Shown: positions 17,893-43,055 of the stretch, in pieces
Position numbering within the stretch: the stretch's first letter is position 1
Layout of the letters: each line of letters starts with the position of its first letter
NCBI GenBank assembly: GCA_964017235.1
Contig: OZ024938.1
Span: forward strand, 56,101,816-56,165,815
Length of the DNA stretch: 64,000 bases
Direction of reading: 5' to 3'
DNA from: Sabellastarte sp. h YS-2021
Lineage: Eukaryota; Annelida; Polychaeta; Sabellida; Sabellidae
The notes under the pieces: model-generated
Database searches by the model: none
What the model was told of the DNA's origin: nothing
The model's input: only the letters and a program-made list of their open reading frames with translations
Program-made: the position numbers and the translations under genes

Positions 17893-17956
17893 ATGGGTCT
17901 ACTGTTCTGGATACAAGGGATTATTACTTTAATATTTCTGCAAAAGCACTGTTCAG
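17893..17956 (+). CDS. PAN gene 1, exon 1: signal peptide
   Basis: The ATG at 17893 has A at -3 and G at +4. It opens a 21-residue stretch starting MGLLFW with a hydrophobic core (IIITLIFL-like) and ending HCS. The exon stops in phase 1 at TCAG|GTATCC. It joins exon 20228 in phase, giving a Gly across the junction. This is a typical secretory leader. The 5' UTR and promoter were not resolved. Confidence 0.7.
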
Positions 17957-20900
17957 GTATCCTGTTTTAGATTTATGCTAACACATTCTTAATTACCAAA
18001 ATTGTTGTAATTTTTCATTATCATTTCAAGATATTTAAATCAATGTAGGAACTGGAGACATGTATATAAATGTTTCTCCTTAAAAGTAAATCCCAATTTA
18101 CAGTAAAATGTTAATAGATTTTCCTATGTGTTAAATTCCCAATTTCTAGAATAGAATAGAATAGAAACATTTATACAGCCCAAAATTGACGCAACATCCT
18201 CTAATGCTCTTGAGGCAAAAAAGGGAAAGTCAAAATTCAAATTTAGCACCTGCAAGGGGAGATATATTATGGTGGAGGGCATGCAAGTTTAAACAGGTAG
18301 GTTTTTAACTGGCTTCGAAACCCTCTTACTGTGTTCTGTGATCAAACTGATTATGGGAGTCTGTTCCATTCAGTAGGAGAAGCCATTGCAAAACCTAGTC
18401 TACCAAAGGCCTTCTTGGGACAAGCTGAAGAAAGAGAAAGCAGATTTCCATGAGTAAGGCTACTCATTTTGATTAAAGATAAGTATTAGTTGGGGGGATT
18501 TGATAGCCTTGAATGTGATAAAATTATATTTGAACAAGATACAGGTTGATGCGGGGAGCCAATGTAGTTTTTGCAGATAGGAAGAAACATGGCTTGCTTT
18601 ATCAAGCCCGAAACAATTGAATCTTTTGGAGTTATCCACGTTATATTTATTCACACCATAGAGTAGGGAATTTGCAGTAGTCAATTCGACTACTGATCTT
18701 TGAGTTTGCCAGCAGGGCTGCAGTCTCCACACTGAGGAATTTTACAGATGCGTCGGAAATCTTTGAGATAGTAGCAGGCACAACAAACCTTGGTTATATG
18801 ACTGGCAAAGGTGTTTCCAGAATCAAAAGTGACACCCAAATTCTTAACTTCATTGGTAACGAAGATAGAATTACCAGGAAACTGGGTGGGAAATTTTTGC
18901 ATAAGGGAATCTCTGGCCCATCTGCTGCCAATGACGGTGAATTCTGTTTTCTCTGGATTTAGGTACAATCTGACACCATCCATCCATTTCTGAATCCAAG
19001 CAAGACAATCAGTGAGCTTAGCAATACTGGAATCAAAATTCCTGGAGTCGAGTGCTAAGTTTATCTGGGTGTCATCAGCATAATGATAATGGGTAACATT
19101 GAAACTGGTGATTGTTTGGTTGAGTGGGATAGTGTAAAAAGCAGCGGACCCGGGACAGAGTCTCGGGGACCCCACAAGGGAGTGTGAAGGCATTCGAGAA
19201 GTTATTTTCCAACTTAACCTTCTGTCTGCAGTTTGTGAGATAAGATTTTGTCCTCATCAGAACAGTGCCATCCACACCGAACCAATCCCTGAGTCAGTTA
19301 CAAAGAATGTTATGATCAATAGTATCAAATGCAGCTGAGAGGTCTAACAATGTGAGAGCAACAGTCTTACCTGAGGCCATTGAAGCAGCTATGTCGTTGT
19401 GAGTTTTAAGGAATGCTGCTTCTGTAGAATGCAATCTCTTGTAGGCTGATAGGTTAAAATTAGAGAGCCCCTCTTTATTAATGTAAATATTAACTGTTTA
19501 CCCACAGCTTTTTCAAGGTTTGACACTGGTCTATAGTTTTTCAGGAGGTTTCTATCTAGACTAGGCTTCTTGAGAGGGGGATAACATATGCAATTTTGAA
19601 ATAATTTGGGAAGCTTCCTTTTCTGAGCGAGAAATTTATGATATTGGTAAGTGGTGTAATTAGGATGTTTGCACACTCTTTGACCAGAAGATAGGGCACT
19701 GTTGTTAATGCTTGGTCTGGTGATAGAAACTGGTGCTGATGACTGTAGTGCAGTTCTGATTTTCATAATTTTGTCACTTAAAGAAAGTCCATAGAAACTG
19801 GCTAGATCAGTAGCACTGATATGATCGAGTAAAATAATAGTCGGTGAATTATGTAGAGGCTTTTGAAGGTGTTCCACAGAGCCTTGAGGTTACCATTGTT
19901 TTCAGTAATAACTGTGGCATATTGCCTGCATCTAGATTTTTCAAGTAGAAAATTATAGCGGTTAACAGCCAAACAATATCTACTTTAGGTTAATTGTGGA
20001 ATTGTCCCTGCGACATACATGCTCATACTTCCGCTTCAGATGCTTTGCTGACAGGATGTCTGGATTTATGAAACCTTTGTCAGGGTAAAGTGGTACTTTT
20101 TTCCTATTTATTGGAGCTTGCCTGTAAATAGGAAAAACAAACTTGAACTAAATTGAAACTCTCATGTGTTCTATGGTAAAGTATTTTAATTTACAGAATA
20201 AAATACATTTATATTTATCAAAATCAGGGTTGGAGATCTACAAAAAGTCTTATGTGGATAGTGGCAGATATGTAGATGGAGTAACATCACCACGCAGATG
20301 TCTGGACTACTGCTACCACTACCTCACCACAACAAAATGTTGGGCTGTTGACTTCAACTACAAAGACAAGAGGTTATAAAGACAATAGCTGAACTTTGTG
20401 GTTTTAACTGTTATATACAGGACAAAATATAAAAGTTAGGCTAAATATATACGCCTTTATTGAGTAAGGTTAGTCAGGTTGAGACATATATTTTGCGCTG
20501 ACAAATGATTTATAGCATTATTATATTATCATTGTTTATTGTCTATGGAGAATGGTACACCTACACACACCTACTATACACTTTTACTTGCATACGTATT
20601 ATAACAACAGTATATAAATATATAAAGCAGTACATTTCAGGTATATCTTATATTTATTGATATAAATATATGTGTAATAGATATATTAATATAACCACCA
20701 CAAAACATAAACATAGTAGGATGAATTTGGGGATGTCCCTCATTTTAGCTTAAACTAAATTGAAACTCTCATGTGTTCAACATATTTTAATACAGGTAGC
20801 AGAGCTTCTCACCATATGTGTTTACAACTTTACCATTGTTCATTTCAGATGTTTTGTTCATATCAACGTAGAAAGTTGTGGAGATTTACACCAGCTGGAA

Positions 20901-23900
20901 TTTTCTACTCACTACCGTTTTATGGAATGTAAGAGTTTATCTCAAGCTGATGGGGGAGATGTGAAAGATATATTGCCTACAACCCGTATGTTTAATTAAT
21001 TTTGATTGACATACAAAGTTTATATATATTTTTTATTCTTACATGTATAATTTTTTTAGGTTGAAGATAAATTTTCATCTGTAGTCAATAAAACTAGATG
21101 TAATTTTCCCCCTATTTATGTTTAAAAACGAGTGGTGTAATTTGTTTGATGTTTTCTTTGCAGCTGCACCCAACGAACCACCAGCAATAAACATTTATGA
21201 AAGTAAGTCTGATTTCATTGATGTTTATTTATTGATATAGTGTTTAAATCACACCCAGTACCATTGTATGAGGTATATTGTGATGGGGAGTTAGTGAAAG
21301 GAGGAGGAAACCAGTGCATACATATGGTCAAGGTTCTGTACTATAAGCTGCTGACCAATGGCAAGCAACTACAAACTTAATCTCAGACTTGATCTCAGAA
21401 GTGAGAGGCAATGTGTTACCATTGCGTCACCTTGGCCCCTTTTCATTGATGAGCATAAATGAACTGACTGTATTTAGATGTTACGTCATCCAGTAGAGTA
21501 TTAGGTTCCTTACTTTTTTACCTTATAAATCCACAAGACCCGTGATTGTATTAGAAATTTAGAACACATTCATGTGTGGCCATATCATCACTCATTAGAA
21601 TTGGTATTGTCCATTGGTGTAATGTGTAAGGTTCTATAAAATGTGACATTTTAATCATTTTGTGACATAATCTAATAAGATGTCATAATGTCCTCAAATA
21701 AGAGCACGTTTTGGAACTGCTAAAACTAGATGACTGGAAATTAATGAGAACCATCGTTTTTTTCATAGCATGGACAAATTTCGGATATTTTAACATAACT
21801 TCAAAATCCACAAAACTGCCTCAGAATTCTTTTGTAGCTTAATCACTATTTATAATACTTGTGTTTACATCTTGGTGTTCCATCATATGGATAAGCAGCT
21901 TATACATAATATACCATTAAAATTTACAACTAACTGTAGCTAAAGTACTGGTATTCTCTTGGTTTGTTAATTCTGCATATTAAGGGGTCTACATTCTCAT
22001 TTTAAAAGCATCATTTTTTGTTATTATCTTTGGCAGATACAATTTAATGGGATGGTTTATATTCGTAATGTGGTGAGTTCTCTCTCCCTCTGGTGTTCAA
22101 AATATACTGAATTACCTTGTCAGCAAAAATGTAAGAGAAATAACTACATGGAGCAAGTGCAATAGCAGTTTTCGATTTCTTTCAAGTTGCCATAGAAAAT
22201 GACTAGTTGTTATACTTAAAAAAAATAGTGTAGTCACATTTTACTTTATATTGTGCAGAAATGATGTTTACATACTTAATAATATCTCGTGAAAGCCATT
22301 TGAAGCCATATGAAACACTGGATTTCATTTCATTTCAAAGCACTGGTAACCGGTTTTGATCTCTGTATACAATGCCACCACTAATTTTGAGTGTCTACTA
22401 GCACAAAGTATCTATATGTAGATGTTTGGAGTGTATACACACCTATGCTGTCCACTCTAAAATGTGAGTAACATCCAAAGTTCATCAAATCCACTCTCTG
22501 GTAGATCAACACACTATATTCACTTCACTCCAACATGAATGCAACACAAAATGTATATAAAAAGCAGTTTAAATCCATTTGACACACAAATAAATTAGTC
22601 AACTGTATCGCATTTTCAAAGATCTCTGTCTATATACCACACTAACTCCATACTGAACTTAGGGATGAGGTTTGTGTCAGCCTTATACATAGCTGGAGAT
22701 TATAGTAGTTTCTAGAAAGGAGGTAAACAACACAGGCAACAAGAGGTTCTAGAAAGAAATGTAAACACGTCAACACATTTCCAAGAAAATAACTTATGCA
22801 AGGTTCTAGAAAAATGGGTTTTCCCCAAATCTACCAATATATCACTCCACCAGAGTGCAGGAAACATCAGTACTAAATAGACCATTTCTGTAAAATACAG
22901 AAAAAATCAATAATTCAATAACCTTATAAGGAAAATGAACACTGAATTCACAACAACAATGTCCTGTTCAAAAGATAACCTGACAGACTGCCATTATATG
23001 TAACGCTACAAAATTTACATGATCCAAAGTCCAAATTTCTTCATTTATTTATTTATTTGTTTGGGGTTTTACGTCGCTTTCAACACTGTACAGGTCATAT
23101 CACGACGGGTAGTTGGAAGGGCAGAGGAAACCAGTACATATAGTTCGCTAGGGTTCTGTACTGTAAACTGCCGACCAACGGCAAGCAACTACCAGCTTTC
23201 CCACTTACAGCCATGACGGGGATCGAACCCCGGCCGCAGAGGTGGGAGGCGAGAGTGTTACCACTCTGCCACCGCGGCCCCTCAAATTCCTTCATAATTA
23301 TTTTGGAAACATAATTTTCTCTCTAATTACCAGCAACTAAAACTTAAACATTTTAAACATTTACATTTGCTGTTTTCCAATTATTTTTGGCTAGCTATAT
23401 ACTCAGAAACCTACATTAATGGAGGTGATTTGGTGCCAAGAATTCACACCAAAGATGATTGTTACATTCATTGCTACAAAGACCAGCACTGCAAGGGCTT
23501 TGATTGGGACTTTATCAACACCAGATGCTTCTTCCATAGTGAAAAGACTGTTTGTGGTCAGTTTATTCACAAAGCCGGGAGCTTGCATATGAGGCTGGAC
23601 TATGCATGTGATACTTGTAAGTTCTAGTTTTACTTCTACTTCTAGTTTTATCATGTGAATCTCACGAGTCTCATCACTTGCATAGGAATCTTATGTGCAT
23701 GATTTTTATATCTTTTGTTTTTATCTTATATGTAAGTCATTGGTTTTTTTGTTAATAATAACAATTTGGGGGGAAAAGACAACAGAATTAATAACAAGTA
23801 ATGCCCGACAATGCACAAACCCTTGTCCATGGGTAGCGTTGAAAAAAATCTGGATTTTCGATCATTTCAACAGTAAGGAGGACGAAGCCACAGGTAGACG

Positions 23901-26021
23901 CCACCTTGTGTGAAAATGTAACCCTTGATCAGATGAATATTTTTGGAGATGGTTATAGAGGACATAAACATCACTAAAACAATTAACGGTGTTTGAGGAC
24001 ATAGCCACAGGCGTGAAAATATGACTCTGATCCAATGTTTAGGTTTTAAGCACATGCTCTAGAGAAGCTCGAGCTTCTGGAGATCACTTGATAGACTTGA
24101 TCAGACTTGATAGCACACAACTGGCATCGTCAAATATGCTTCGTGCAAAACTGCCTCAATTTTATACGTTTCTTTCAATGGGCCACTTATAGATTGTATT
24201 TGCAAAAAAAGAACGATCTTATATTTATTTATGTTATAATTTCTAGATAAGCCCCAGGCCTGTAAAGTCACTGCCATACAGCAACTACCCCAGGGATTTT
24301 CACGTATTGGAGGGACAAAGCTTGCTGATAACATCACATATGAGTCATGTGTTAATTTGTGTCAGGGGAAAGAGGATTGCAAAGCTGTGGACTGGAACAT
24401 AATGGAAAGGTAGACACATTAACTGTCTATCAGACATTGCCACAATAATCAGCAATTGTGTTTAATGCTAATCTCTGTCTTTTTGTCCAGATTACCACTT
24501 TAACATGATTTATTTCCACCCAGAAAGAAATTACATTTATGGATACAAAAGGTGTGGTACAGGCATCTATAGCCAATATGGTAATCCTCACATGGGTATG
24601 TTATTCATTGATATAAACCCTCGAGAATTATGTACAAATAGTATAAAATAGAGATCAAACTGGATCTACTGAAGGTTTACCTCTGAAAGCTGGGAAACAA
24701 TGTATTGGCATGTGAATACGTGTAAAGTGATATGTAAGTGTAAAGTAGGGTGTAGATACACCTGTCTCTTGGAGAGATGGTTGGAAGCCATTCTGAATAC
24801 CGTTGCATCTTTAAAACAGCTCAATTGGTTTCTTTGTTTCTCCATAGTGATCACCCAAGCTATTTGGTCCTCTTTTGTATATCTGTATTGGCAGATCAAG
24901 GTTGTAGCTTATGCAAAGCCAGTACACCCAGGCATATCATTTTGTTATTAGAATCATTAATTAGATATTACTTCGTCCCCTAACAAACATTGCATGTAAC
25001 CACAACTTTATGAAAAATTAAGGCATACCAAATCAAAAATCCTACACGACATAGCCAACCAGATGAAACATTCTTGGAAGTTCCTTCAGTACATAAATCT
25101 GCGAAACATGTCAGTCATAATTTTGTGTTTGATGCTCCTATTGTTTGGAATGATTTGCCAGATGATGTATGTTCTGCCTCTTCTCTTGCCAAATTTTGAA
25201 AAAAAGCTTTAAGTCTCATCTCTTCAATGGGGCCTCCCCAAAATAACTTGAGTGTATCCAAGTTCTCTGTGGCATCACCCCTGCTATGTCTATGAAATCA
25301 TGATATGTTTAATTAGCTTATGATGGTGTGGCTTAGAGTCTTCCTTGGCAGACATTAACACTATGGGAGTACTAAATATAAAATAAAATAGTATAATAGA
25401 ATGCTGATAAAGATGATCATATATTCTGCATTTTGGTACTTTCTTTATAGCATTAAAATCTCATGATGCAGTCTACTGAGCATAGCTTGAATGTATTGTT
25501 CATTGATCAAAATTAAATGGAAAATATAAAGAAAAAGTTAAATTATTATTTAGTAAATACATTTAATATTCAATTACAATTCAGATCATGCTGGATGTAT
25601 GACACAGATGAATTTGTTCTGGAGAGAGATTGTTGTCTGCATGCTCGCAAAGTCTGCAATGATAAACCACAGCAGGTAATGAGCCATGGGTCAATTAGAT
25701 TGCAGCTTTCGTTTTAAAAAAATTATTTGATACATCTTTTTTTTCAATGGGCATAATTTTATCCTTTAATAATAATCTCAATAGATTGTTCAGTAACTAA
25801 ATATAACATAACAGGGTGTTACAACTTAAAGCATCTTGGGTAAAATAAAAGAATATATTCCATACAGATCAATGGTACATGAAGGTGACAGTGAATAGAT
25901 TTTTCTTTAAGTTGAATTGCCCGTATCTTAACTCTTCTTACTTTTAAAATATACTTTTGCAAAAACTATGATATATTTCTTGCAATTATATTTTTAGGAT
26001 GCCAGTGTGAACAGAAACTAG
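17893..26021 (+). CDS. PAN gene 1: secreted protein with three PAN/apple-like modules
   Basis: Spliced model with coding exons 17893-17956, 20228-20372, 20849-20985, 21164-21202, 23395-23616, 24247-24409, 25585-25675 and a last exon starting at 25998 (stop 26019-26021) or 26006 (stop 26054-26056). All borders are GT-AG and every phase joins. The product is about 294 residues (303 with the alternative end): signal peptide 1-21, PAN-like module M1 about 22-105, a Pro-rich linker (APNEPP), M2 about 129-202, and M3 203-287. Each module has the C...C....C-x-(A/G)-(V/F)-D-(F/W) core followed by C-F/Y-x-H-type cysteines seen in PAN/apple domains. No membrane segment or GPI signal is evident. A polyadenylation signal AATAAA lies at 26431. 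I infer an extracellular binding or adhesion role; the ligand is unknown. The exon structure is confident, the exact 3' end is not. Confidence 0.72.
18147..20115 (-). mobile_element. Decayed CR1/L2-like non-LTR retrotransposon
   Basis: Minus-strand pieces appear in the right order: an endonuclease-RT spacer (HLKRKYEHVCRRDNST near 20050), ALWNTFK-type text near 19880, LLKNYRPVSNLEKAVGK (RT entry motif, near 19540), YADDTQINL (catalytic motif, near 19080), and NPEKTEFTVIGS and KNLGVTFDS (near 18850). Stops and frameshifts break it. The 3' end at 18147-18166 is a short (TAGAA)n-type tail as read on the plus strand. It sits in intron 1 of PAN gene 1, opposite to transcription. Confidence 0.75.
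20228..21202 (+). CDS. PAN gene 1, exons 2-4: PAN module M1 and linker
   Basis: Exon 20228-20372 encodes the first half of the module (CLDYC ... CWAVDFN). Exon 20849-20985 encodes the second half (CFVHINVESC ... HYRFMEC). Exon 21164-21202 encodes a Pro-rich linker. The codon for Arg is split AG|A across the first intron, and the other junctions are phase 1. The cysteine spacing fits a PAN/apple fold. The same three-exon plan (142, 113 and 36 nt) recurs in PAN gene 2. Confidence 0.7.
21240..21440 (-). mobile_element. Degenerate tRNA-derived SINE, reverse, in an intron of PAN gene 1
   Basis: The family body is recognisable (gaggaaaccagtgcataca, ggttctgtactataagctgc, accaatggcaagcaactac) and it ends in a worn 'caccttggcccc' head. 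It lies between the linker exon and the M2 exon. Confidence 0.55.
23040..23283 (-). mobile_element. tRNA-derived SINE, well preserved, reverse
   Basis: Read on the minus strand it starts ggccgcggtggcagagtgg (box A), has ggttcgatccc (box B) and a 'gacgtaaaacccc' tail followed by AAATAAATAAAT. It is the least eroded copy here and sits 110 bp before the M2 exon of PAN gene 1. Confidence 0.8.
23395..23616 (+). CDS. PAN gene 1, exon 5: PAN module M2 in one exon
   Basis: This 222-nt exon is in phase 1 at both ends. It encodes an intact PAN-like module: CYIHC, CKGFDWDF, RCFFH, then KTVC and YAC. The acceptor is TTTGGCTAG and the donor is GTAAGT. Its exact partner in PAN gene 2 (32980-33201) is also 222 nt with the same phases. 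Confidence 0.78.
24247..25675 (+). CDS. PAN gene 1, exons 6-7: PAN module M3
   Basis: Exon 24247-24409 encodes CKVTAIQQ ... CVNLC ... CKAVDWN. Exon 25585-25675 encodes SCWMYD ... CCLHARKVCND. Arg is split AG|A across the intron. M3 belongs to a subtype distinct from M1 and M2, marked by a double Cys before His-Ala-Arg-Lys; M6 of the neighbouring gene shares it. The intervening intron contains a LINE 3' fragment. Confidence 0.7.
24907..25400 (+). mobile_element. LINE 3' fragment (CR1/L2-like) in an intron of PAN gene 1
   Basis: Frames contain FVFDAPIVWNDLPDDV and ASSLAKF, the C-terminal signature of CR1/L2 reverse transcriptases (F..AP..WN.LP...), followed by AT-rich 3' tail sequence. It is 5' truncated with an internal stop. 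It is related to the fragment at 33232-33440. Confidence 0.6.
25998..26021 (+). CDS. PAN gene 1, proposed last exon
   Basis: After a T-rich tract and TTTTTAG, the phase-0 continuation reads seven residues and then TAG. A second possible AG at 26004-26005 gives a 16-residue end (CEQKLVAV...) with TAA at 26054. Both choices terminate the protein here. Which acceptor is used cannot be decided from sequence alone. Confidence 0.4.
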   Translation, partial: DASVNRN

Positions 26022-26430
26022 TTGCTGTTGAAAATGTTGAAATAACAATGAAATAACAGAGACAATAAGAAATATATTATCTGTTTCCTGGTTTCCTTAT
26101 TACTGGTGACATAAATTCACCAAACAAAAATGTTGAAAAGACAAGAGTAAATTATGGAAACTTGTACAGACTGTATTTATGTACATAATCTTTCTTCTGT
26201 ATTCTAATATGATCTATAGCACTACATACTTTGTATCTAGCATATGTAAATTCAGTATATGTCAAAAATCTAAAAAAACTAAACTATCTTATCATTATGA
26301 ATGGATGAATAAGCACACCTGAGTTTGGTGACCAATCAGTAAAAATGGTAATAGTGTACATTTTATTGAAAATTATCCAATGATTTCTTTCTGCTTTTGT
26401 TTGTTCTTTTTGTGCAGCACTTGTCACAGA

Positions 26431-26436
26431 AATAAA
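26431..26436 (+). promoter_or_regulatory. Possible polyadenylation signal of PAN gene 1
   Basis: An AATAAA hexamer lies about 400 bases after the proposed stop and about 2 kb before the start of PAN gene 2. AATAAA is common in this AT-rich DNA, so this is only positional support. Confidence 0.3.
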
Positions 26437-26439
26437 TAT

Positions 26440-28425
26440 ATCTACACACAAATAATTTTGTCATTCTAATTATAATGTGGGTAATTGCAAGTCCTTGTTA
26501 ATTTGAACTGAAAAAAAATATTATAGTTTAAATTGAAAATACAACCTATTGACTTTATAATTATATTGCATTGTGTCAGAATTACATTATAAAACAAAGT
26601 CTAAACTCATGCAGATATATGGAGCAAAGTAGATTATAAAAGTAATTCTTTCGCAGTTCGTCTTTTCAGCAATAGTAAAGGTACTTTATATATGTGTTTC
26701 AATGGTTGAATCCTTTTGAAAGAATTCCACTTTTTCTAGATATTCACTTATTCACGTTCCTCTTTGCACCTGTACATAGACATCAGAATACACTTTTGGC
26801 TTTATTCCCCAGTGACTTGTTTATCTTGGATCCATTTTAATACAAACATCTTTTGTGTGTATATTTGGGCACACTATCAAAAGATGATGCTCATTGTTTC
26901 ATAGATTCATAGTGTCTTAATCAAATATACAAGACCATGAAGGTGCCCCTTGGCAACTGGCTATAAAACACATCACACATTACAGACTTCCTCGAGCACA
27001 GAATGGCTAATTAAGAAGTCATGAAATGATGCATTAAGAATGTAATGCTTCCCAAGAAGTAGCAAGAGTCTCTAACCTCTCTCACCACAAATACATGTTT
27101 GCATGATAACATTAATAGTGGTCGTGCAATTGAGAAATAGCAAAGTTAATCATCATCAGCAGTACATTTATCTAAGAGTCTCCTACATGATTAGGATTAT
27201 CATATAAAGACAATGTTTATTGGAATTTTTCATCCTTATAGTTTGCCAAAGTTCAAAGTTTCTGTTTTAGGATATTGTTCACCAGTCAGGGTCATATTGG
27301 GACAGGTCCTCAACATTGTCACTTGTGATAAGATTCCAATCCACTAAGCCACTGAGGACCTCGATATATAATTGATAACCTTAAAATCTGTATCATGCAA
27401 CCATTTGTGACAAATAATCAAATAATCACAGTTTAAAAATATTTTAAAAAATTACGAGATTTTTACTTTTACGAGAATGGTTATTTCCAGGAAGCATTGC
27501 ATCAAACCAGTTCTTACGAAAATTACATTTGCTTATTTCCCCCAACCCTGTAAGGGAGGTTGTAGTAATTGTGTATGTTTATCTCTTTGACAGTGATCTT
27601 GACTTAGAAACTATATATCAGGTCGGGGCCATCTTTTCACACAAGGTGCGTCCTCATCGAAGATGATCCAGAATTGTATCAGAGCTCCAGAGCCTTTTAG
27701 GGATTTTTGACCAGGCGAGTGTTTGTGCTCCCTAAAACCCTGCTTGTCATTTATGCTATACCATCTCTTCTATTATATCTCCACTGTTATTTTATAGCAT
27801 TGTGAAGCACACAGCGCCATATTGTGTTTTTGGCATCAGTAATTGTCCCATATAGAGGATAAACCATTAAATATATGTTGACAAGTGTTGGTTTGCAAAG
27901 GTAGAATATACGTACCATACAATATCATGCAATGGAAAATTATTCAGCTAAAATAGATTTAAACCTTAGGTGAGCTCTTGTATTTACAGTCTGATAAATC
28001 GTTACAAATAAGCCACAATTGCTCGCAAATTATTCTGTAATTTACTAAAATATACCAGCTAATTAATAACTTGCTTTTAAATTCACACAATTAAAGGAAT
28101 TATTAGTCTTTTTAACTACAAGTTGCCAATCTTCATTTGTAATTTAATGAAATCTCTGCAAATTGTCATCAACATGCCATTGGTGAGACAATGTGATTAT
28201 AAATTCAGTGTATAGCTTTGTTTTGCAGAAGCTATACATTCACTGCATAACTTAACTCTGTACTCTAGCCAAGTTAGTGACGCCTTGAGTTGACCAGACA
28301 TACCATTTACCTTGCATTATTAAGAACAATCGTTTGTGACTAAAATGCATAGGGCCTAATTTGTGATGATATAGGATAAAAAGTTTTTACACAGAAGTAT
28401 CAAAGTTTTTATTTTGCTTTCTAAT
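26440..28425. other. Intergenic spacer between the two PAN genes
   Basis: About 2 kb of AT-rich DNA with a SINE head fragment (27283-27361) and a copy of the 'caccttgtgtgaaaa' repeat (27628-27672, reverse). A weak TATA-like GGATAAAAAG at 28374 lies about 50 bases before the ATG of PAN gene 2. No exon is seen. Confidence 0.4.
27283..27361 (-). mobile_element. tRNA-derived SINE head fragment, reverse
   Basis: 'gtcatattgggacaggtcct' and 'ccactaagccactgaggacc' are the reverse of the head and tail region of the copy at 361-515. It lies between the two PAN genes. Confidence 0.5.
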
Positions 28426-28489
28426 ATGGATTTACCAGTTGTACAGGTTTGCTTTTATTCTTGGATTTTATTAAAGACCATAACTTGGG
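28426..28489 (+). CDS. PAN gene 2, exon 1: signal peptide
   Basis: The ATG at 28426 (A at -3, G at +4) opens MDLPVV... with a hydrophobic stretch (VCFYSWILL) and reaches TGGG|GTAAGT in phase 1 after 64 coding nt. PAN gene 1 exon 1 is also 64 nt in the same phase. The next exon (29948) supplies the other two bases of a Gly codon. This exon is the main reason to treat the downstream exons as a separate gene. Confidence 0.6.
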
Positions 28490-31400: not shown

Positions 31401-34400
31401 TTTCTTATATTCTTCTCTACTTATATCCGATAGCTAGTTATTTGGTTTACCTTGATAAAAAAGTAATATATCCAGATATTTACTGATTTAGTTGTTGTGA
31501 AATCTTAAGTCTGTCTGCTTTGAAATCGAGTATATTCTATACCACACATTTTTGCCATTGTAATTTGTATATATTTACGATTTTGCCTATGTTTAACTTT
31601 TAGAGATTTTTGAAAGTGCCATTTTTAACATCTAATATCACTAGCAACATTTTGTGAGCCAGAATATATGCCTAACATATTACAAACTTTTTAAAGCTAA
31701 AGTAATATCAGCAATAATCCAATTACTAAAGAAAATTGAACGCATGAAATGTTATTATTTTGTAGCTCCACCAGCTGATCCTCCATCACTGTCCATAATA
31801 CGTGAGTATAGTCACTGAATTCATATTCTATGTACTATTTAGACTAATGTTTCTGCAATTTTATTTTGTGTACAGACAATTTTTCCATATTTGTCAGGGG
31901 CCGGTTTCACAAAGGATCCTAGACTTAGCCAAGTTTTTGGCTAAGTCATAGACTTAAATCTAAGACTTTGGTCTCAGCTAGGTCTGGGACTTAAATGGAT
32001 TTCACAAAAGGTGACTTAGCTAAGTCCAAGCTTATTATATAACCACAGTGGTTTTCTGTGTCATGTGACCTTTTATTTCTATTCCAAATATAACATTGGT
32101 GACAAATATCCTTCATTTGACTCATTTTGTCTAAGGATAAGTGCCGTTTTCAAATGGAAAAACTTGTTATCATATAAAAACTTTCCAAAGACTACATTAG
32201 GGAGGTAGTTTATATATTTATACTTTATTTACAGGCTTTTCCAGTTTTGAAGTGGAGAAAAATTTATGGCGGCCATATTTAAGTCTTTGTTTACAAAATT
32301 TAAGCCCACTCCCAGGTAGGCTTCATTTTGAGCCCCAAAACTTAGTCAAAGTTTAGGAGTTACTGCTTTGTGAAATCTGTTAAGTCTAAGACCACGGACT
32401 TAGCATGATTTAAAGACAAATGCCTTGATGATAAGTCTAAGTCCAGGCTAAGTCATTTTGTGAAACCGATCCCAGGATATTGTAATGAGTAAGATAAATT
32501 TTCACAGTTATAGAAATGTGTGTCAAATTGTGTGCTTTTTCTAGTGTATCTACCAATTATTGGGCTTTAAATAACCAGATTATTTAAAAATGTAATCGGA
32601 TTTACAGTTGAAGGGACTTCATTACTGCAATTCATCTTTCCTTTTCCAATAAACTGCATTTTTGCAAAAGCAACACGGCTGTACCACAGTATCAGTTCAA
32701 TTACGGTCACAAATTATACCTCAAAATCAAATTTAAGGCAATTAAATCTGGGCCAGTATTTCCGTCATACTATTATAAACTAGATTTAAACTGATCATCA
32801 CATAGATTAGATAATGTTACCTAATCAACTCCTTAAACGCACTTTCAAAATCCTTTTTAAAAATCTTCATCATCATTATTAGACCCACCAGCATGGAATA
32901 TTTTAACTCAATTTTAAACTGTTTTGGCCAAATTTATTTTAGAGGTAAAATTAACTCTTTATTACATGATTCACACCAGCCACATACCAAGGTGTGCACA
33001 TTCCTGGAGGCATCTGGCAGAGCAGTCTTACCAGCCTGGACAACTGCTACAGAGTCTGCTACTTCTCACCAACCTGTCAGTCCTTTGAGTGGAACTACCT
33101 ACAGAAGAGATGCTTCCTCCACAGAGCCACCACTGCCTGCAACACACTGCAGAACCTGGCCTTCACAACCCACTACAGAATTAGGGCAAACTGTGATCCC
33201 GGTAAGGAATGGATTCACTCCAGTGATTTTACAGGGTTGTCTCTTGTGTATAAGCCAGTACTCCCAGGCATACCATTTTTCTAGTAAAATCATTAATGTG
33301 ATATATAATACTCCATCCCCTAACAGATATTGCACATTACCACAACTTTCTAACAAATTAGGGCATACGTAATCAATAATCCTAGATTCTGCCCTGTTTT
33401 GGAATAATTTGCGTGGTTCTGATGAAATATGACAAAAGGATTTGAGTCTATCACTAAATGTTACACCAAGTATGCAAATGTCAGGGAATCAGAACTATTT
33501 AGAACTGCTATTATTGCTTCATTCTGAGCATAAACCACTTGGTCACAAAATGAAATGACAGTTTTGGTCATGTGAAGGCTATGCTTCTTAACTTCTAATC
33601 TTACCAGTGTCCACATTTTCACTATGTAAAAAAACATCAGATTCTAAGAGTGTCTTAGAGATGTCAAAGTCTCCAATGTTAAATAATACAATGATGTTAT
33701 AGTCATATGACTTTATATATATAAGTTTTATATGACTTTATGTGGGGTCAGGTCATGTGAAGTCGGTAAACAAAAGACTTGATCCAAATGGCTGGGGGTT
33801 CTTTTTATAGCTGGAAAATCTGGGTGTTTGTTAATTCTCTATATTATGTTTTAATTTTTTTTATAGTCCCCGCAAACTGTTTCAATGTGGTTTTCCAAGA
33901 ATTAGAGGACCGAAGTAGAAGCAATGGTAAGTATAACCTATTTAAATTTATTTAAATATAATTAGTGCAATTCAATAGACTCTTTTCATAACATGATTAA
34001 TATGACATTTATAATTGAATATATTCATTTTGCACTATAATTATACCTTCATCTAAGTGAAGGTTAATTGGGTAAATTCTTGTTATTTCTAAAAGAATAT
34101 AAAACCAAGGTTGAATAAAGCAATTCAAGCAAAGCAACGATACTTTTATGTCAAACATGTCTATGTTTTGATAATATTCCTAATTGGCAAGTTTTTTCTT
34201 GGTGATTCAGAAATTGTCAGGGCACAAATGTTGATTTTTTTTCTACAAAAAATGACCCATCTTAAATATATATTCATTTGTATAATCGCTTTAGCTGGAT
34301 GTATAAGGCAAACTTGCTGGTGTTTCAGGGAATCAGATAGCTGGCAATATTGCTTACAAGGACTGTGTGGAGTTATGTCGGACTCGGTCTGGATGTCAGG

Positions 34401-37400
34401 CTGTGGATTGGGATGTCAGTAGACAGGTATAGATAAAGTTCAATACACCATAGGGGGTTTTAAGTTCATCTTGTTACCTCCATTTGGAGTTCATGTTTTT
34501 GGGTGCATTAGTTTATCTGTTTGTTTGCAGGTTTGTCTCTGTTTGTGATAGCTACAAAAGTAATAAATGTTTTAAAAGAGGTCATCGCCATGTATGTATA
34601 CAGCCTATACGAACAATATACATATAAATGTGGAGTGCTCTAGGAAAAGTTAATTTACTATCAAAATTAGAGTTATTAAGCGTGAGTTCTAGTGACACTC
34701 ATGCTTCTGGAGATCATTTTTTGTTTGTTTTTGTTTTGTAGTTCTTTCCTTTTTTTCGTATTTCTCGGGACTTTTATGAGAATTTACATAGCAGGATGAG
34801 TACCTGTCTCTTCACTGAAGTTAAGCAGCATTGGGCTATGCTATTATTATGTTATGTTATTATTATAACATTTCAGATATGTTATGAACACAATACTGCT
34901 GGAATCCCACTCCTCAATAAATGCTGCAAGCATGCAAGGAAGTTATGTAATGATGGCACTACACAGGTGACTTGGTTTGGTTATGAAGCTAAATAATAAG
35001 TAGAATATCATATATGTAACTGATTAAATTAATAACAAAGATTTAAAATTTTTTAGCATGTAGATTCGTGGTTTAATTATAGTAGAATTCAATTTTTGAC
35101 ATGTAAGATGCAAAAATAATGTCCTTGACAATCTTCTTTCAATGTCGAATAGCATTAGCGTTAAAAAGTGAATTCAAACAGTAAGTCATAGTTATTCAAT
35201 GTGTAATATCCTCAGGTACATCAGTTCTGTTAATACCTGAGCTTCCGGGGAATCTGCTTTAGCTCAACTGATGAAAGAGCTAGACTTGTGTTTATTTCTG
35301 TGTGTAATCCTAAGGCTGTGGTATTGAAACCCCGCAGAACCAACTTATAATTTCTCCATACAGTACAAATTTATTTGATGATGTGATGAAGTTAATCTTT
35401 TACATAAATAATTTTTAATCTTTTAATAATTATTTTTAAAAATGACATTTATGCAGTTCAATCAATCAATTTCAATCAGTTGTCCAAGTGCTTAATCTCC
35501 GTATCTACGGATTCTAAGGCACACCATCCAGTTCGTAAGGCATAAATCATCAAGACATTAGACATGTTCCAAGTCGTACCCAGGGAGGCGATCCGGTGTT
35601 CGGTAGTTAGAAGCTATGGTGGAAATGATTTCTGAAATAGGTAGGTTTTTAGTCGACTTTTGAAACATGAGAGATTTGGAGCACTGCGAATATTATGTGG
35701 AAGATCATTCCATAACTTCGGGGCATCATATGAGAAACTGTTGTTGAAATGGACCTTTGATTTATGGATGGAAGCACAATAATGAGGAAGCTGGAGGAAC
35801 AAATTTTTGGGGTTGGAACGTCTTGTATTCATGGCAGATTTGTACAAGGAGAGATATGGTGCGAAATACTTGGGCTGGCCAGTGGTGAGGTACTTATAAA
35901 CCAAAACTAAGGTTTTGAAGATAATACATTGTCTGATGGGTAGCCAATGAAGTGTCCTCAGGGTGGATGTGATGTGAGTGTACTTTGAAGCACCAGTGAC
36001 AAACCGTGCAAGAGCATTTTGAACATATTGGAGCCTTGTAGCATTACGGGATGACAAACTGCAAAATAGAGAATTGCAATAATCCAAACGACTACTGACC
36101 AGAGCATTTGCAATCACCACTGATGTATCAACGGAAAGAAACCTCCTGATACGATAAAGGTCCCTGAGGCTAATAAAACAAGATTTGATGACAGAATTTA
36201 CGTGATTGGTGAAACAAAACTTTGCATCAAACAGAACACCCAAATTGCGTACAACATCTGTGGGAGAGAGACAATTACCCAGGATATTGACAGGAAATGA
36301 GTCACTGAGCCATTTGTATCTGTCTTTGGCACCAAAGACTATGAATTTTGTTTTATCAGAATTCATTTTTCAGCAAATATTAGACTATATCTTATTCATT
36401 ATTTTCTGTGTGACAGAACCCAAAAGCTAGGATCAGCTATCAACGTTACTTTTGAACGATGAACTTTGAATTGCTCCTAACCACTTAACCATTCATATGT
36501 GCTCCTTGATTCATGATAATTACTTTTGTGTACAATGTCATACTGCATTTTTCTCTTGGGCTAACTCATGACCAATTGCACACTTCATTTTTTGCGATAT
36601 GATGATTCCTTTAACTTAGTTGGTTGCTTCATGAATTTGGATAAGTAAGAACATTTGGGAGAAATGTGATTAAATTTGTATGTCACTACAATTATATCGA
36701 TATCATTAACATTTTAACAAAGACACTATTGTTTCGTAAGGTTCCTCTTGCAACCACTACCCGTGCAACCACAACAACCGTCATGGGTCCCAGTACCAGA
36801 CCAACCATTGTTACACCAGCTGTCAAACGAATCCAAGATGATGGTAGGTATATGTTAAATCTTAAGTTAATATATAGTCAGAAAATATTCTAAAAATATA
36901 GAATTTTACCTGGTACAAGAATGTTTATTAGAAGTTATCTCTTCGTTTGAAGATAGGCAAGATAACCCATGGTCACAACAGTTGCCAAATAAATTCAAAA
37001 ATAGAAGGAAGAAGGTTTATTTCTAACATAACTAAATTTTGAGCTGTAAAGGCAAACACTTTTTACCAAAGTAGAACATTATCCTTTAGTGTTAAGGTTT
37101 TATGAGCATTTATAGATAACAGTTGGTTACTCTAAGTTTCTTTGTGAAATATGATATAATACCATTTTATATACTTTCAGGAAAATGTCCCTCTGAATTG
37201 CTGGCGGTTGAAAATACCAGATCTGACAATGGCATAGATGTTCCAGGCATTACAGATCCTGACAGTTGTAAAGAGTGGTGTTTAGGTAAACTGAAATTGT
37301 TGATGAATTGCACTATAAAAGTTGTATTTTGTAAATAAAAATCAAGGTTTAGTATCTGTGGGCATGGTTCAGTATTGTATTACCCTAACTAGCCCCTCAT

Positions 37401-40400
37401 CAAAACTCGACACTTCCTCACGAAGTTATTGCAAACAATCTTATATTGCCTTCATTTGTATTAAACTTACAATGAACTGAGCTTACAAGCCTGCCTACAA
37501 ACGTAGGATGCGTGTCTTTGCATGTGCAAACCATGGTATCCCTGTTCACACTGGCCGTTACATCCAAAGAATGTTAAATATTAAAAACATATTTGTTATA
37601 TAATTTAGACTTAACTGTTTATGGGTCTTATTAGGAATCCCATGTGATACAGATATGTTAACATATAAACAAAGTTTTGTTATTTTGTATGGCAAGTGGC
37701 ATACCTATTTTTGGAAAACGGCACAAAGATAAAATAGTTTATGTACATAACAAAAATCTTTAACAGAAAGAACTGATTCGGAATTAATATCACAGATAAA
37801 TAAATGTAACTGTAATAAAGAATCCCAAATAGAAATGTAGAATATGCTGTATATCTGCTGTTAGAATTTAACTTGTACATTGTTTTTTTATACATTCTGT
37901 TCTGTTGTATATTTACTGGAGACATGACCTTGTTTAGCTTTTGAAGTATGCAATAAATAGTAACCAATAAATGTTAAAAACATATGATGTGCACAGGGTT
38001 TGACTTCTCTTCAATAATCTTATGAGAGTATATGATATTGTCTATATTTAAATTTGTCTGATATTCCAGGTAACAGCAGTTGCGCAGCAGTTGACTTTGA
38101 TAATGTAGCCACTTCTGGCACAAGGTGCTACTACCATCCCACTGGTGTCTATGACAAGGCCAGTGCACAGGCTGATCCATGTTGTACACAATTTAGGAGA
38201 CTGCCACCATGTGAGATTTACTTTATGAGTTGTTTAACAGATTTAAGTAAATAACAAATATCAACAAATATCATGAAAACTATAACAAGATGTTAAGATC
38301 ACTTGTACAAGGGCTGTTTTCACAAAATGTATTCAGTTAAAATAAAAACTAGCTTAACTTGGACAAATGAATGAGCTAATCCTGGGAATAAATTGGAATT
38401 CACAAAATTAAGCTAATTTTTGGATTAAGAGCGGCAGATTAAACTATATTTAATTCAAACTTTAATCCATTTCGTTGGGTGAATAAAAGTTAATTAAAAA
38501 GCAAATGCAAAAATAAGATTAACTTGTCTGTGAATACTACCCTTAATTCTAATCCAATTTTTGGATTAACTTGAGCTTATTTTTAGAAAATCTTTCACTA
38601 ATCCCTTCTGTGAATACGACTCCAGATAAGCAAGTGTAGAAAATTCCTTCTAGACAAACTTTTCTCTAGCATGTGATGCAAAATGTTACAAAAATAATAT
38701 TAAATAAAACAATTTTCGACGGCTGCAGCATTTTAAAATTGTTTATGATATGATAAGGTCAGAACAAAAGATGTTGGTCTATGCCAAGTATGGAGATAAC
38801 CATGGAGAGAACTATCAGTGGAGTGACACTTTATCAGCCAATTGAGGAGTTCTTAGATTTAGACCCCACAATGAACTACACCGATATCAGCCTTGATGAA
38901 TGCACTGGACTGTGTAGGATGCAGGCAGATTTTACCCGAGATCAAAGTTCAGGTAGATATGGATCATTAGCATTGGTCAGTAATCTTTTTTGCAATGTTG
39001 TCATTTACTGCACAAATGGTTAAAGCTTTGTCTTGCATCAATTTAAGAACTGAGGATCTGTTTATTTTTTTTAATGGCCATCAGTATATGCAGCTTGTTG
39101 TTATATGAGGATTTAAACCTACTGGCATGTAGGTGAGAGCTCTATGTAGCAACTGTGACCCACATAAGTTTTCTCAGTTTCATATTTATTCCAAATATTA
39201 TCAAGTTATAGGATTAAAAGTTTACATATGCAGATTTATATCATTAACTTTATCCATTAATTATAATTGTGCGAAACTCTAATCACATTTATTTGATGAA
39301 AAGCAATTTTACAGCAGTATTGTTTTTCTTTTAAGGAACACTGAGTGGGTTTTTCCCGATAGAAGCTGAAAGAAGTTGTTACCCTGTTGGTAACCCATTA
39401 GCCAATTCACACAAGAATTGTGAGGTATAATTGTTAGTTAGATTTCCTTATCAGAAATAATAATATTAATTATAAATTACTTTTCTCAAAAGCTAAAAAC
39501 AAACTGTAACTGGTTATAGTCAAATTGATCACATTCAGGCATGCTATAATACTGAAATCCATATGTTAGTTTGATAATATTTGCAGGATTCTTTTGTGGT
39601 CAATAATCTTCAGAAACTGTCAAATATAAAGTCGTGCCATCGTATTTCCCTGAAAGATCACAGGTTACAATTTATGTAAATAAGCCCAAAATGTTTGACA
39701 TGTATCTGCTAACCAAGATTGTTTTATGCATTTTGTCTATCAGGTTACAGTGAAGGAATCAGATGGGACGTATGAAAATGTATCTCTGGTGTGTTACTGC
39801 AGTGCTGACCAGTGTAATGCATTTTGGGCACAAGTAGTGGAAGGTATAGAAATACAAAAAATTAAATACCACTTAACTATAAAGAAAAATGGAAATGATC
39901 ATCACAAAAAAAACAACAAATGTATATAAATGCACATGACACCAAAGAAAACATCACGGTTTGCTACAAACAGCTAGCTTATTTAGAAAATGATAAATTA
40001 TGCAGCTTTGCCATGTATCTTTAACAAAGTTAAAGTTGAAGTTCAAATCTTGAACAAAATCAATTTTAAAAGTACTGAAAGAACTTGGATCTACACCTAT
40101 GGTCTATCAGTGTGCAGATGTTAACAAGTTGGACTTCATTTACATATGTATATAATGATTTGTACATGACTAAAACATTCTGTTCTTAGCCTGTGTAGCT
40201 CATTACCCATTGGATTGCCACACCTTAGATCTGACATTTGGGCAAAGACATGGGGAGGGTTTTAACATGCATTTCAGTGGAGAGGACCAAGCCAAAAACT
40301 GGTCTGCAGTGTTCAATGGAAGTAGTTACATCCAAGTAAGATTTGTTCATTATAACTCTTTTAGTGTTTACTGTTATTAACATATACACGTATATAAAAT

Positions 40401-43055
40401 TTACTGTAAATTTAAGGCCCTATAATATTGTGTAGTCCTTTACTTGACACATATATTCTTTATTCAATGGCTATTCATTCTGATTAGTCACTATTGTCAT
40501 GCCAAATCAACCATCTATTTAATATTCAGTATTGGTTTAGACAAGAATATTATGTAAATTTAACTGTTTGTTACAGGTATAGGAATATTGAATAAAATGT
40601 TATATTACTTAACATCCTGTGTTACAGGTTGACACCTTTATGAACAATGTCTTAGCTGCTGTAGGCCCTTCTGCGACAAACAATATAAGGCCAGACTTTT
40701 CGCTGCTGTTTTGGTTTAAGTTTACCAGTACTGAACGTAAGTACCAATCGTGCCTATAAAGAGCAACAAAAGTATCTACAAAAAGAGATTCTCCCTTGAA
40801 CATCTGTTCTCACTTTCGAAAGTTAAAAAAGTAAATGAAAGTATAATTTAAATATTTAAGTAGTTATGGTTTAATCTTTTTTCACATAAACATGAAAATA
40901 TGACTTTATTACAACAGCTTCTGACATGACCATCATCAGTAATGGTCTCCATGATCGTGCCTCACTTGATATCTTTACCTCTCCTCTGAATGCCACACAC
41001 AGGACCATACATGCCACTGTCAGGATCAACATGATGCCTTTCTCTGGTTCAGTGGATGTAAGAATACTTATATATTGCCAACCACCTGTAAAGACCTTTC
41101 ATGTGAAGAAATTATGTTTGTGTATGAACTGAGTCTACATTTGGGTAGTATCTGCCTTTTCTCTTATTATTACAAAGGTAGGCGATATACACAACAGTAT
41201 ATAGAGTTACACGTTATACTCTCCATAAAGAAATAGTAGATGAATGAAAGAAGAAAAGGTAATATCCACTACCGTATCACAATATTCTATCTGTATTTGA
41301 TTCTAACTTCAAAGAATCTAGGTTTTGCTTGCAACAGATTTTAGTGTATCGTGTATAATTTATATCATATGTGTTACTGTCCTTTTAGGCAGAATATAAC
41401 AAATGGCAATATTTCTTCTTACGTATTGTCCCAATTGCTGACTATGAGTTGCTTCTTGAAGTTGGAGATTCCACCAACATGGCTACTGACACTGATCAGA
41501 TACAGACAGGCATTTCATCATTGAGTGAGTAAATTACTCACTTACTCATAAATGGTGAAAAACAACTGGTGTTTAAGAGTTTAACATTTGACCAAACTAT
41601 GAAAACAACAGGGACAATTTATTTTTTGGAGTCAGATGCTGTACAATCAGAACATACAGAGTCATGTGTGCCATCACTGTATATACATTTGCAATTGTAA
41701 CTAATCAGATCTTGACACATAGTTAAGTTAACCAGCTTCATCATTTCATGCAGTTGGGATAGACAATATTATCTGAATAAAATTTGCACCCAGTGCCCCA
41801 TTGTGATCACATATCAAATTTAAGAGATCTTGATCAGAAATGGTTATGCATATAATATTTATTTCCTATTTGCTCTAATTTCAACTTGTAGCAGTGCTTA
41901 ACTAATTATAGAAAGTGGGCAATAAATGTAATAGATAACATAAATAAATGTACAAAAGAGTCATAATAATACATCATGTTTATATAATGTAACTGTAGTG
42001 ACCGGTGCCAGCATTGACTTGAGGTCAAACCCATTATGCATTGGAAAACAGTATGTTCCTGATTCAAACTTTGTTGCCACCAACATTCCTGGAGAATATT
42101 ACATAGGGCTACTTGATGAGGTAAGTACTTTTTCTGGAAGTCCATATTTGGGACAAGCCAGATACTTGTTACAGACAGGCCTGTTTGATTAACTGACAAG
42201 CCGGGAGGTGTAACCAACAGGCCGTTAAGTTAACTGACAGGCCTGTTGCTAGGGGGCTGAAATTAGGGTTGGATATAAGAGTCGGTAATGGTTGTAGAAA
42301 TATCAAACATGTTTGATATTTCACCGACTCTCCCCGACAGGCCGGGAACTTGCAACCGACCCTAACCGACCATGTAAATATTGGTCCCGACTCTCCAAAA
42401 ATGCATAGTTACTGGCCTGTCGGCTCCAGTGGAACACCTGCATTAACACAATCACCTCCCATTTCCCAGATTGTAGGTTTTATTCCCATCCAAATGTGAA
42501 GTGGGAAAATCAGCAGTTGCTTGCTGTTACCTGGTTTTCAGGGCAGAATCTTAAGCATCAAGTAAACACTACTTTCTATTGTCCCCTTAAATAACCAATA
42601 ATGATGTACAAAGTCAAAGTTGTGGTTTTATGACCCATTCAACAGCCGGGGTCTTATTGAGACATGTCCGCGGCACTGCCACTTGTGGCAGCCGAACCTA
42701 GACACAGGTTATAGCCTGTGATTAGATGCCAGACCTGCTAACACATTAGACTTCCGAATACCTACCCTGTCACGATTTCATCTTTACAATGTGTTTAAGG
42801 TGATATTTCACTCAAATAATCAATAATAATTCTTTTTATAAATGATTTGCAACTATTGACTAAAGTGTGTGTTATTTGGTTGCAAACACATTTCCACATT
42901 GGCTCACTGGGAATAATGTCTTATTCAGTATAAATTTGCATTTCATTTTGTTGTCTTCATATTTTTATATATAGGCACGTGCTATGTCTCTTAACTTGTC
43001 ACTAAATGGACACTTCTTATTATTCACCAGATATGGATGTTCAGAAGAGGTCTAA
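28426..43055 (+). CDS. PAN gene 2: secreted PAN x4 / Ly6-like / laminin-G-like protein
   Basis: Twenty coding exons: 28426-28489, 29948-30089, 31265-31377, 31766-31801, 32980-33201, 33867-33926, 34329-34426, 34877-34966, 36741-36843, 37181-37285, 38070-38210, 38758-38952, 39336-39424, 39744-39843, 40190-40335, 40628-40736, 40918-41057, 41389-41524, 41999-42120, 42975-43055. Coding length is 2,292 nt (763 residues) with every junction in phase and GT-AG. Order: signal peptide 1-21, PAN-like M4 (22-98), Thr/Pro linker, M5 (119-192), M6 (193-275), Thr-rich linker (276-309), M7 (310-392), an eight-cysteine Ly6/uPAR-like region (393-515), and a laminin-G/concanavalin-like domain (520-737) with a short C-terminal end. 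No membrane anchor is visible. The family is not recognised by name. Extracellular adhesion or recognition is inferred from the domains. The weakest borders are the acceptors at 38758 and 42975. Confidence 0.75.
29948..31801 (+). CDS. PAN gene 2, exons 2-4: PAN module M4 and linker
   Basis: Exon 29948-30089 encodes CLRQC ... CVGFDFD. Exon 31265-31377 encodes CYLHSSGTEC ... CCDHYRFYDC plus a Thr-rich end. Exon 31766-31801 encodes the Pro-rich linker PPADPPSLS. Lengths and phases parallel exons 2-4 of PAN gene 1. The reading frame is open just upstream of 29948 (from ATG 29908), which would give a second, shorter hydrophobic N-terminus; the spliced signal exon fits better. Confidence 0.7.
31898..32473. 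mobile_element. Fold-back / MITE-like element in PAN gene 2
   Basis: The left end 'gggccggtttcacaaaggat' and the right end read in reverse 'gggatcggtttcacaaaatg' are inverted copies. Both are followed by runs of related 'gacttagcc' / 'aagtctaag' motifs along the arms. About 576 bp, with no coding capacity. Confidence 0.6.
32980..33201 (+). CDS. PAN gene 2, exon 5: PAN module M5 in one exon
   Basis: The exon is 222 nt, phase 1 at both ends, and encodes CYRVC, CQSFEWNY, RCFLH, TAC and the HYR...C end. The acceptor was set at 32978-32979 because the product then aligns residue for residue with M2 (Gly-Gly at the same place). A nearer AG at 32991-32992 would shorten it. Confidence 0.75.
33232..33440 (+). 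mobile_element. Second copy of the same LINE fragment, in PAN gene 2
   Basis: Sequence from 'gccagtactcccaggcata' onward aligns with 24915 onward ('gccagtacacccaggcata', 'cccctaacaaacattgca'), and it has a remnant of the TTTTGGAATAATTTG (WN.L) region. It lies just after the M5 exon, in a different intron position from its relative. Confidence 0.5.
33867..34966 (+). CDS. PAN gene 2, exons 6-8: PAN module M6
   Basis: Exon 33867-33926 encodes CFNVVFQELEDR. Exon 34329-34426 encodes CVELC ... CQAVDWD. Exon 34877-34966 encodes ICYEHN ... CCKHARKLCND. It is the same subtype as M3 of PAN gene 1 but has one extra intron (33927-34328) in the N-terminal part. Confidence 0.72.
34797..34840 (+). mobile_element. 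Second 5S rRNA-derived fragment
   Basis: 'gagtacctgtctcttcactg' then 'aagttaagcagcattgggct' and 'atg' match the 5S A-box region and match the 6790-6715 copy at most positions, including the non-canonical GGGCTATG. It is truncated right after. It lies in an intron of PAN gene 2, just before exon 34877. Confidence 0.5.
35458..36370 (-). mobile_element. 5'-truncated CR1/L2-like LINE with an open 250-codon end
   Basis: The minus-strand frame 36366-35614 is uninterrupted. It has SDKTKFIVFGAKDRY, NLGVLFDAKFCF, SSRLDYCNSLF, ALARFVTG, LHWLPIRQCIIFK, YDAPKLWNDLPHNIR and SCFKSRLKTYLF, all in the canonical order of the C-terminal part of a CR1/L2 reverse transcriptase. The 3' end near 35458-35480 carries a (TTGA)n-like tail. 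The open frame points to a fairly recent insertion into an intron of PAN gene 2, opposite to the gene. Confidence 0.82.
36741..38210 (+). CDS. PAN gene 2, exons 9-11: Thr-rich linker and PAN module M7
   Basis: Exon 36741-36843 encodes a Thr/Pro-rich spacer (ATTTRATTTT), a likely O-glycosylated hinge by composition. Exon 37181-37285 encodes CPSELLAVEN ... CKEWC. Exon 38070-38210 encodes SSCAAVDFD ... RCYYH ... CCTQFRR. The terminal Cys of the module is completed across the junction with exon 38758. M7 has no counterpart in PAN gene 1. Confidence 0.68.
38311..38623. mobile_element. Second fold-back element in PAN gene 2
   Basis: The left end 'gggctgttttcacaaaatgt' and the reversed right end 'ggagtcgtattcacagaagg' are imperfect inverted repeats, with further complementary 'agcttaacttgg' / 'ttaacttgagctt' arms inside. 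It is about 313 bp, non-coding, and similar in style to the element at 31898. Confidence 0.45.
38758..39843 (+). CDS. PAN gene 2, exons 12-14: Ly6/uPAR-like cysteine domain
   Basis: Exons 38758-38952, 39336-39424 and 39744-39843 encode about 120 residues with eight cysteines: RCW, DEC, GLC, RSC, KNC, VC, YC and a final DQCN. The C-terminal C-x-C-x(4)-CN is reminiscent of the three-finger Ly6/uPAR ending. The middle is longer than usual, so this is a family-level resemblance, not a firm assignment. The acceptor of the first exon (ATAAG) lacks a good pyrimidine tract and was chosen because it restores phase and completes the last Cys of M7. Confidence 0.5.
40190..43055 (+). CDS. PAN gene 2, exons 15-20: laminin-G/concanavalin-like domain and C-terminus
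   Basis: Exons 40190-40335, 40628-40736, 40918-41057, 41389-41524, 41999-42120 and 42975-43055. The product begins HYPLD, has FNGSSYIQV, then FSLLFWFKF, a strand-rich middle (YNKWQYFFLRI, YELLLEVG) and YYIGLLDE. This order is typical of LamG/concanavalin-like jelly-roll domains (usually about 180-220 residues). The final exon adds 26 residues and TAA at 43053. It carries a late Cys and no membrane anchor. Candidate AATAAA signals lie at 43593 and 43917. Confidence 0.62.
42278..42331. repeat. Hairpin with a perfect 26-bp palindrome
   Basis: 42297-42322 is a perfect inverted repeat centred on AACATGTT. It is enclosed by a further pair 'agagtcggt' (42278) / 'accgactct' (42323). It sits in a patch rich in 'acaggcctgt'-type short palindromes (about 42170-42430) in the last intron of PAN gene 2. 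Confidence 0.75.
42437..42545 (+). mobile_element. Degenerate tRNA-derived SINE fragment
   Basis: 'aacacaatcacctcccattt' and 'gtgaagtgggaaaatcagca' followed by 'gttgcttgctgtta' track the body of the copy at 47915. The tail is missing. Confidence 0.4.
42605..42760 (-). mobile_element. tRNA-derived SINE, reverse, in the last intron of PAN gene 2
   Basis: 'ttatgacccattcaacagcc' matches the reversed tail, and 'tgccacttgtggcagccgaa' with 'agatgccagacctgctaac' match the reversed head of the 361-515 family. Confidence 0.55.

Follow-up and report, generated by a model that had tools for sequence, protein, structure and literature searches.

Predicted tandem PAN-module genes with matching front-half exon layouts in the annelid Sabellastarte sp.

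We analyzed a 64,000-nucleotide (nt) stretch of the genome of the sabellid annelid Sabellastarte sp. h YS-2021 (GenBank assembly GCA_964017235.1, contig OZ024938.1), which is hereafter called the window and which carries two neighboring predicted genes encoding proteins with several PAN modules. The window corresponds to C19:56101816-56165815 of the 1.79-Gb genome, and searches of the whole genome covered this assembly. Gene 1 contains three PAN modules (M1 to M3); gene 2 contains four (M4 to M7), followed by a Ly6-like part and a weakly LamG-like C-terminal part. An initial annotation had read the pair as a tandem gene duplication, and this reading is well supported: we regard the locus as an old tandem duplication within a large PAN family, fairly ordinary and real. 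The features of the two genes are listed below; exons 2 to 7 of gene 1 and exons 2 to 8 of gene 2 are rebuilt exons with open frames.

17893-17956, +, gene 1 exon 1, signal-peptide exon, 64 nt, phase-1 end (hydrophobicity 2.38, donor 4.1)
20228-20372, +, gene 1 exon 2, first part of M1, 145 nt
20849-20985, +, gene 1 exon 3, remainder of M1, 137 nt
21164-21202, +, gene 1 exon 4, proline-rich linker, 39 nt
23395-23616, +, gene 1 exon 5, whole M2 in a single exon, 222 nt
24247-24409, +, gene 1 exon 6, first part of M3, 163 nt
25585-25675, +, gene 1 exon 7, remainder of M3, 91 nt, phase-0 end
25998-26021, +, gene 1 candidate terminal exon, 24 nt (DASVNRN, stop), weakly supported
28426-28489, +, gene 2 exon 1, candidate signal-peptide exon from the start-exon scan, 64 nt
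29948-30089, +, gene 2 exon 2, first part of M4, 142 nt
31265-31377, +, gene 2 exon 3, remainder of M4, 113 nt
31766-31801, +, gene 2 exon 4, proline-rich linker, 36 nt
32980-33201, +, gene 2 exon 5, whole M5 in a single exon, 222 nt
33867-33926, +, gene 2 exon 6, start of M6, 60 nt, followed by an extra intron
34329-34426, +, gene 2 exon 7, middle of M6, 98 nt, phase-0 end
34877-34966, +, gene 2 exon 8, end of M6, 90 nt, phase-0 end
36741-36843, +, gene 2 exon 9, linker rich in Thr and Pro, with a phase-0 acceptor to which gene 1 exon 7 can also be joined in frame
37181-37285, +, gene 2 exon 10, first part of M7 (fourth PAN module)
38070-38210, +, gene 2 exon 11, remainder of M7
38857-38952, +, probable exon preceding the Ly6-like part, candidate start (phase-compatible acceptors at 38758, 38824, 38857 and 38863)
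39336-39843, +, Ly6/QVR-like part in two exons (39336-39424, 39744-39843), below the Pfam cut-off
40190-43055, +, weakly LamG/ConA-like C-terminal part, first exons 40190-40335, 40628-40736 and 40918-41057, then three more
41389-41524, 41999-42120 and 42975-43055, +, remaining exons of the LamG/ConA-like part, with the stop at 43053-43055

All exon lengths claimed in the initial annotation were verified for both genes, every internal border is GT-AG, and the frame runs unbroken through each block. Most splice borders score above the 85th percentile of the window; the weaker ones are the acceptors at 32980 (68th percentile) and 41999 (62nd) and the donors at 20372 (76th) and 20985 (82nd). When ended by the 25998-26021 exon, whose acceptor lies at the 98th percentile of the window, gene 1 encodes a predicted protein of 294 residues, and an AATAAA signal is located downstream at 26431. 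The 28426 exon is a plausible signal-peptide start for gene 2, having the best donor (9.5) among the six candidate start exons found on the + strand of 26022-29947; its hydrophobicity falls just below the filter of 1.6 used for start exons. A further hydrophobic 64-nt candidate exon at 41114 is unrelated and a chance occurrence. On the - strand, gene 1 intron 1 contains an RVT_1 piece (18690-19253, 31.7 bits), and gene 2 intron 8 contains a 251-aa open stretch (35614-36369) that looks reverse-transcriptase-like by eye and gave no Pfam match at E 0.01.

Both proteins passed the PAN_1 (PF00024) cut-off of 21.4 bits, scoring 41 and 61 bits. When the modules were scored one at a time, M4 and M5 passed PAN_1 and M3 passed PAN_3, and M1, M2, M6 and M7 alone fell just under the PAN cut-offs. 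A predicted model of M5 showed the element order expected for PAN (E-H-E-E-E) at low confidence (predicted local distance difference test, pLDDT, 63; predicted template modeling score, pTM, 0.52). A Foldseek search with this model returned the HGF N domain, plasminogen, apple lectins and factor XI among its matches, none of the 147 reaching E 0.001, and a sequence search of gene 1 against solved structures gave no match. The Ly6-like part missed the Ly6/QVR (PF17064) cut-off (17.1 bits against 27.3, E 0.012), and the C-terminal part missed that of Laminin_G_3 (13.5 bits against 27.6, E 0.081); the best solved structures for the latter were legume lectins at E 0.25 or worse, and we treat its LamG-like assignment as a lead only. 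None of the three predicted pieces matched a protease family, with matches considered up to E 1. By analogy with the PAN family, the role of these proteins is likely extracellular binding.

The relationship between the two blocks was evident in their exon layout. Phases agree at 6 of 7 borders, in accordance with the claim of equal phases at nearly every border, and the exception is the intron inside M3/M6. When intron positions were placed on the protein alignment, 4 of 6 coincided at the identical nucleotide, 5 of 6 within 1 nt and all 6 within 3 nt, the last tested border lying at the cut end of the gene 2 protein so that its match is partly by construction. None of 200,000 random intron placements matched any of these levels (random maxima 3, 3 and 4). 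The signal-exon border was left out of this test, as the signal peptides align badly (columns 36 and 26): both signal exons are 64 nt long, yet their peptides fail to align. The linker exons (39 and 36 nt) occupy the same place in both blocks. In addition, M1, M3, M4 and M6 each carry an intron no more than 4 nt from the cysteine after the DF/DW motif; the same intron was found in none of 20 modules counted in seven other loci, of which 16 were uninterrupted and 4 apparently split elsewhere. Gene 2 has one extra intron, inside M6, without counterpart in gene 1.

Sequence comparison supported most of this pairing. The protein alignment of block 1 with block 2 contains 88 identities in 260 aligned positions (34%), and the duplication is therefore old. 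Pairing M1-M3 with M4-M6 in order scored best of the six possible orders (406, with 374 for the runner-up), and the tree grouped M3 with M6 (support 99/97) and M2 with M5 (89/89). The initial annotation had stated that the modules keep both order and subtype; this holds for M3 with M6 and for M2 with M5, and it lacks sequence support for M1 with M4, which we pair because of their shared intron. The subtype of M3 and M6, ending in CCxHARKxCND, was clearly found only in this pair: across the genome, the M3 and M6 stretches were matched elsewhere only at E 6.6 and 8.3 with the gene 1 query and not at all with the gene 2 query.

Several observations weigh against a shared origin of the two blocks as outlined here, or against the gene models on which it is built. 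M1 and M4 are not mutual best matches and are ungrouped in the tree; among the 18 partners compared, M4 matches best a module at C19:9.467 Mb (score 142, against 99 for M1) and M1 matches best M5 (120, against 99 for M4). Strong support is confined to 2 of the 16 inner branches of the tree, 11 being open, and the tree flags long branches (M1, M2, M3 and M5 among them) with an unsettled bootstrap. Within the small set of loci compared, the M3/M6 profile also matches other PAN modules, the best at 6.5e-7; M3/M6 is therefore a subtype and not a separate family. The comparison modules came from loci found by similarity, which biases them towards uninterrupted ones, and several halves of the 4 split modules are weak (iE 0.01 to 0.3). 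The genome searches score best candidates only, exon by exon. As for the gene models, the 24-nt exon proposed to end gene 1 lacks a homologue, and the 28426 exon is one of six start candidates, with a hydrophobicity (1.59) that ranks fourth.

We next considered how much of the gene had been duplicated. Genome-wide, the gene 1 query gave 29 matches (E up to 10), the gene 2 query through M7 gave 31 and the query with the Ly6-like/LamG-like part gave 8; the exon ending at 38952, the start of which is unsettled, was in none of the queries. In these searches, the linker and M7 matched at this locus only, with no second copy found in the whole genome, and the Ly6-like/LamG-like part likewise yielded none, all 8 matches being gene 2 itself. 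Thus a duplication is seen for the front part, whereas the linker, M7 and the Ly6-like/LamG-like part have no second copy that we could find. The explanation that we consider probable is an old, partial duplication in tandem, confined to the front half of a multi-PAN gene. The front of a secreted multi-PAN gene, comprising the promoter, the 64-nt signal exon and M1-M2-M3 with their introns, would have been copied head to tail, with the breakpoint after the M3-type exon. The back half of the ancestral gene (linker, M7 and the Ly6-like and LamG-like part) would have stayed with the downstream copy. Separated from that half, the upstream copy would now encode a short three-PAN protein of about 294 residues with a new terminal exon.

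Duplication of the whole gene followed by loss of the back half from the upstream copy would give an identical present anatomy, and the short intergenic stretch 26022-28425 could be a remnant of what was lost. We consider this improbable: neither that stretch nor the genome yielded a linker, M7, Ly6-like or LamG-like remnant, a search that a decayed remnant could escape.

A different possibility is that the locus is transcribed as a single unit in which two alternative front ends, at 17893 and 28426, share the back end that starts at 36741. The two blocks each end in phase 0, the back half is single-copy, and gene 1 lacks a convincing terminal exon. When gene 1 exon 7 was joined in turn to each of the 11 gene 2 exons, three joins stayed open through exon 11, namely those to exons 1, 8 and 9, the last being the splice that this arrangement needs. 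That splice must skip eight gene 2 exons over 11 kb, and exon 8, which also has a phase-0 acceptor and an open join, would compete with it. The AATAAA signal together with the good 25998 acceptor gives gene 1 an end of its own, and a phase match is not rare, there being three phases only. Taken together, we judge a shared back end unlikely. Tandem front ends with shared 3′ exons are known from UGT1A and the clustered protocadherins. The present locus resembles these in having tandem, phase-matched 5′ blocks before one set of 3′ exons; it differs in that each block contains six or seven introns and in that use of the shared exons is putative. Were splicing to connect the upstream block with the common back end, the locus would be an invertebrate case of interchangeable binding heads made of several modules, and one animal would produce an extracellular protein in two forms that differ in their binding heads and have the same tail.

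The remaining alternatives fared worse. One long gene running from M1 to M7, in which 28426 is not a start, would fit two blocks that adjoin on one strand and a gene 2 signal exon that is not strong, but we give it very little credence. The join from 25675 to 29948 is out of frame and meets a stop after 8 codons, which makes a single long gene unlikely and supports the tandem duplication put forward in its place. Of the gene 2 exons to which gene 1 exon 7 can be joined openly, exon 1 has no AG acceptor. On the evidence of reading frame, the two genes may be separate transcription units. Independent assembly of the blocks by module shuffling, alike through common PAN exon layouts, draws on the abundance of PAN modules in the genome (51 matches) and on the better partners of M1 and M4 elsewhere, and is scarcely credible given the pairing of M3 with M6 and M2 with M5 by sequence, the linker exons at the same place, the coinciding introns, and a module-internal intron that the other modules counted do not have. 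A sigma-70 promoter scan of 25600-29900 was discarded as uninformative, being a bacterial model applied to an animal promoter.

The single phase disagreement was found at the intron inside M3/M6, whose border lies at 24409/25585 in gene 1 (phase 2) and at 34426/34877 in gene 2 (phase 0), with equal spliced length. Six residues separate the tryptophan of the AVDW motif from the next cysteine in both copies. The intron lies 14 nt past the tryptophan codon and 4 nt ahead of the cysteine codon in gene 1 M3, and 15 nt past and 3 nt ahead in gene 2 M6. Judged from the sequence, this 1-nt shift is a candidate intron slide. An alternative splice choice that removes the phase difference was rejected, since the other gene 2 donor, the only nearby one, located after the codon following the tryptophan, would delete four residues from an ungapped stretch. 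Intron sliding is described in PMC7730772 as very rare, if it exists at all, and PMC8599328 holds that it probably adds little to gene structure. The present case compares divergent paralogues by sequence alone, which is weaker than the evidence asked for in PMC7730772. The 1-nt displacement of this homologous intron, with no change in spliced length, is a testable candidate for intron sliding, the existence of which is debated (PMC7730772). The conjunction of such a slide with one transcription unit, in which two signal-plus-three-PAN fronts of about 34% identity share a PAN/Ly6-like/LamG-like tail, seems unlikely to us.

Among known multi-PAN genes, those of plasma kallikrein (KLKB1) and factor XI (F11) form a linked paralogue pair with a common exon layout. 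The annelid proteins resemble these vertebrate ones in being secreted (as predicted) and in having several PAN/apple modules in fixed order. PMC3707919 places KLKB1, with four apple domains, at 4q34-35, and PMC11645312 refers to a single ancestral PK/XI paralog. The annelid pair differs in having three or four PAN modules, no matched protease family and a duplication of the front half only; proteins of the kallikrein/factor XI type carry a trypsin-like protease domain behind their apple modules. Tandem PAN-gene duplicates are expected, and the pair alone changes little. A literature search of limited coverage, judged by titles and the starts of abstracts and therefore not proof that such a case is unpublished, gave, among the papers listed, none on a PAN pair of this kind. 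Elsewhere in the genome, a 0.52-Mb region (C6:13508463-14024486) has eight PAN_1 matches, all on the same strand and several of them stopping at profile position 56-58; this is apparently a larger PAN array.

The window contains further features outside the coding parts of the two genes. An Rfam scan of the window gave no match at the gathering score. Upstream of gene 1, pieces of a DNA transposon lie on the - strand as separate open stretches (a Psq-type helix-turn-helix at 15485-16093 and a DDE_1 match at 13194-13526), presumably of pogo/Tigger type. Two similar stretches in opposite orientation, at about 23040-23290 and 47910-48140, share a GGCAGAGTGGTAACACTCTCG-like core and, by eye only, have the look of a dispersed short repeat. 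Downstream of gene 2, a long tandem array occupies 49763-63540, in which 13 copies of a 300-nt stretch, 62-100% alike, lie between 50414 and 62845; their spacing mostly alternates between about 803 and 1192-1211 nt, which makes the repeat unit about 2 kb long.

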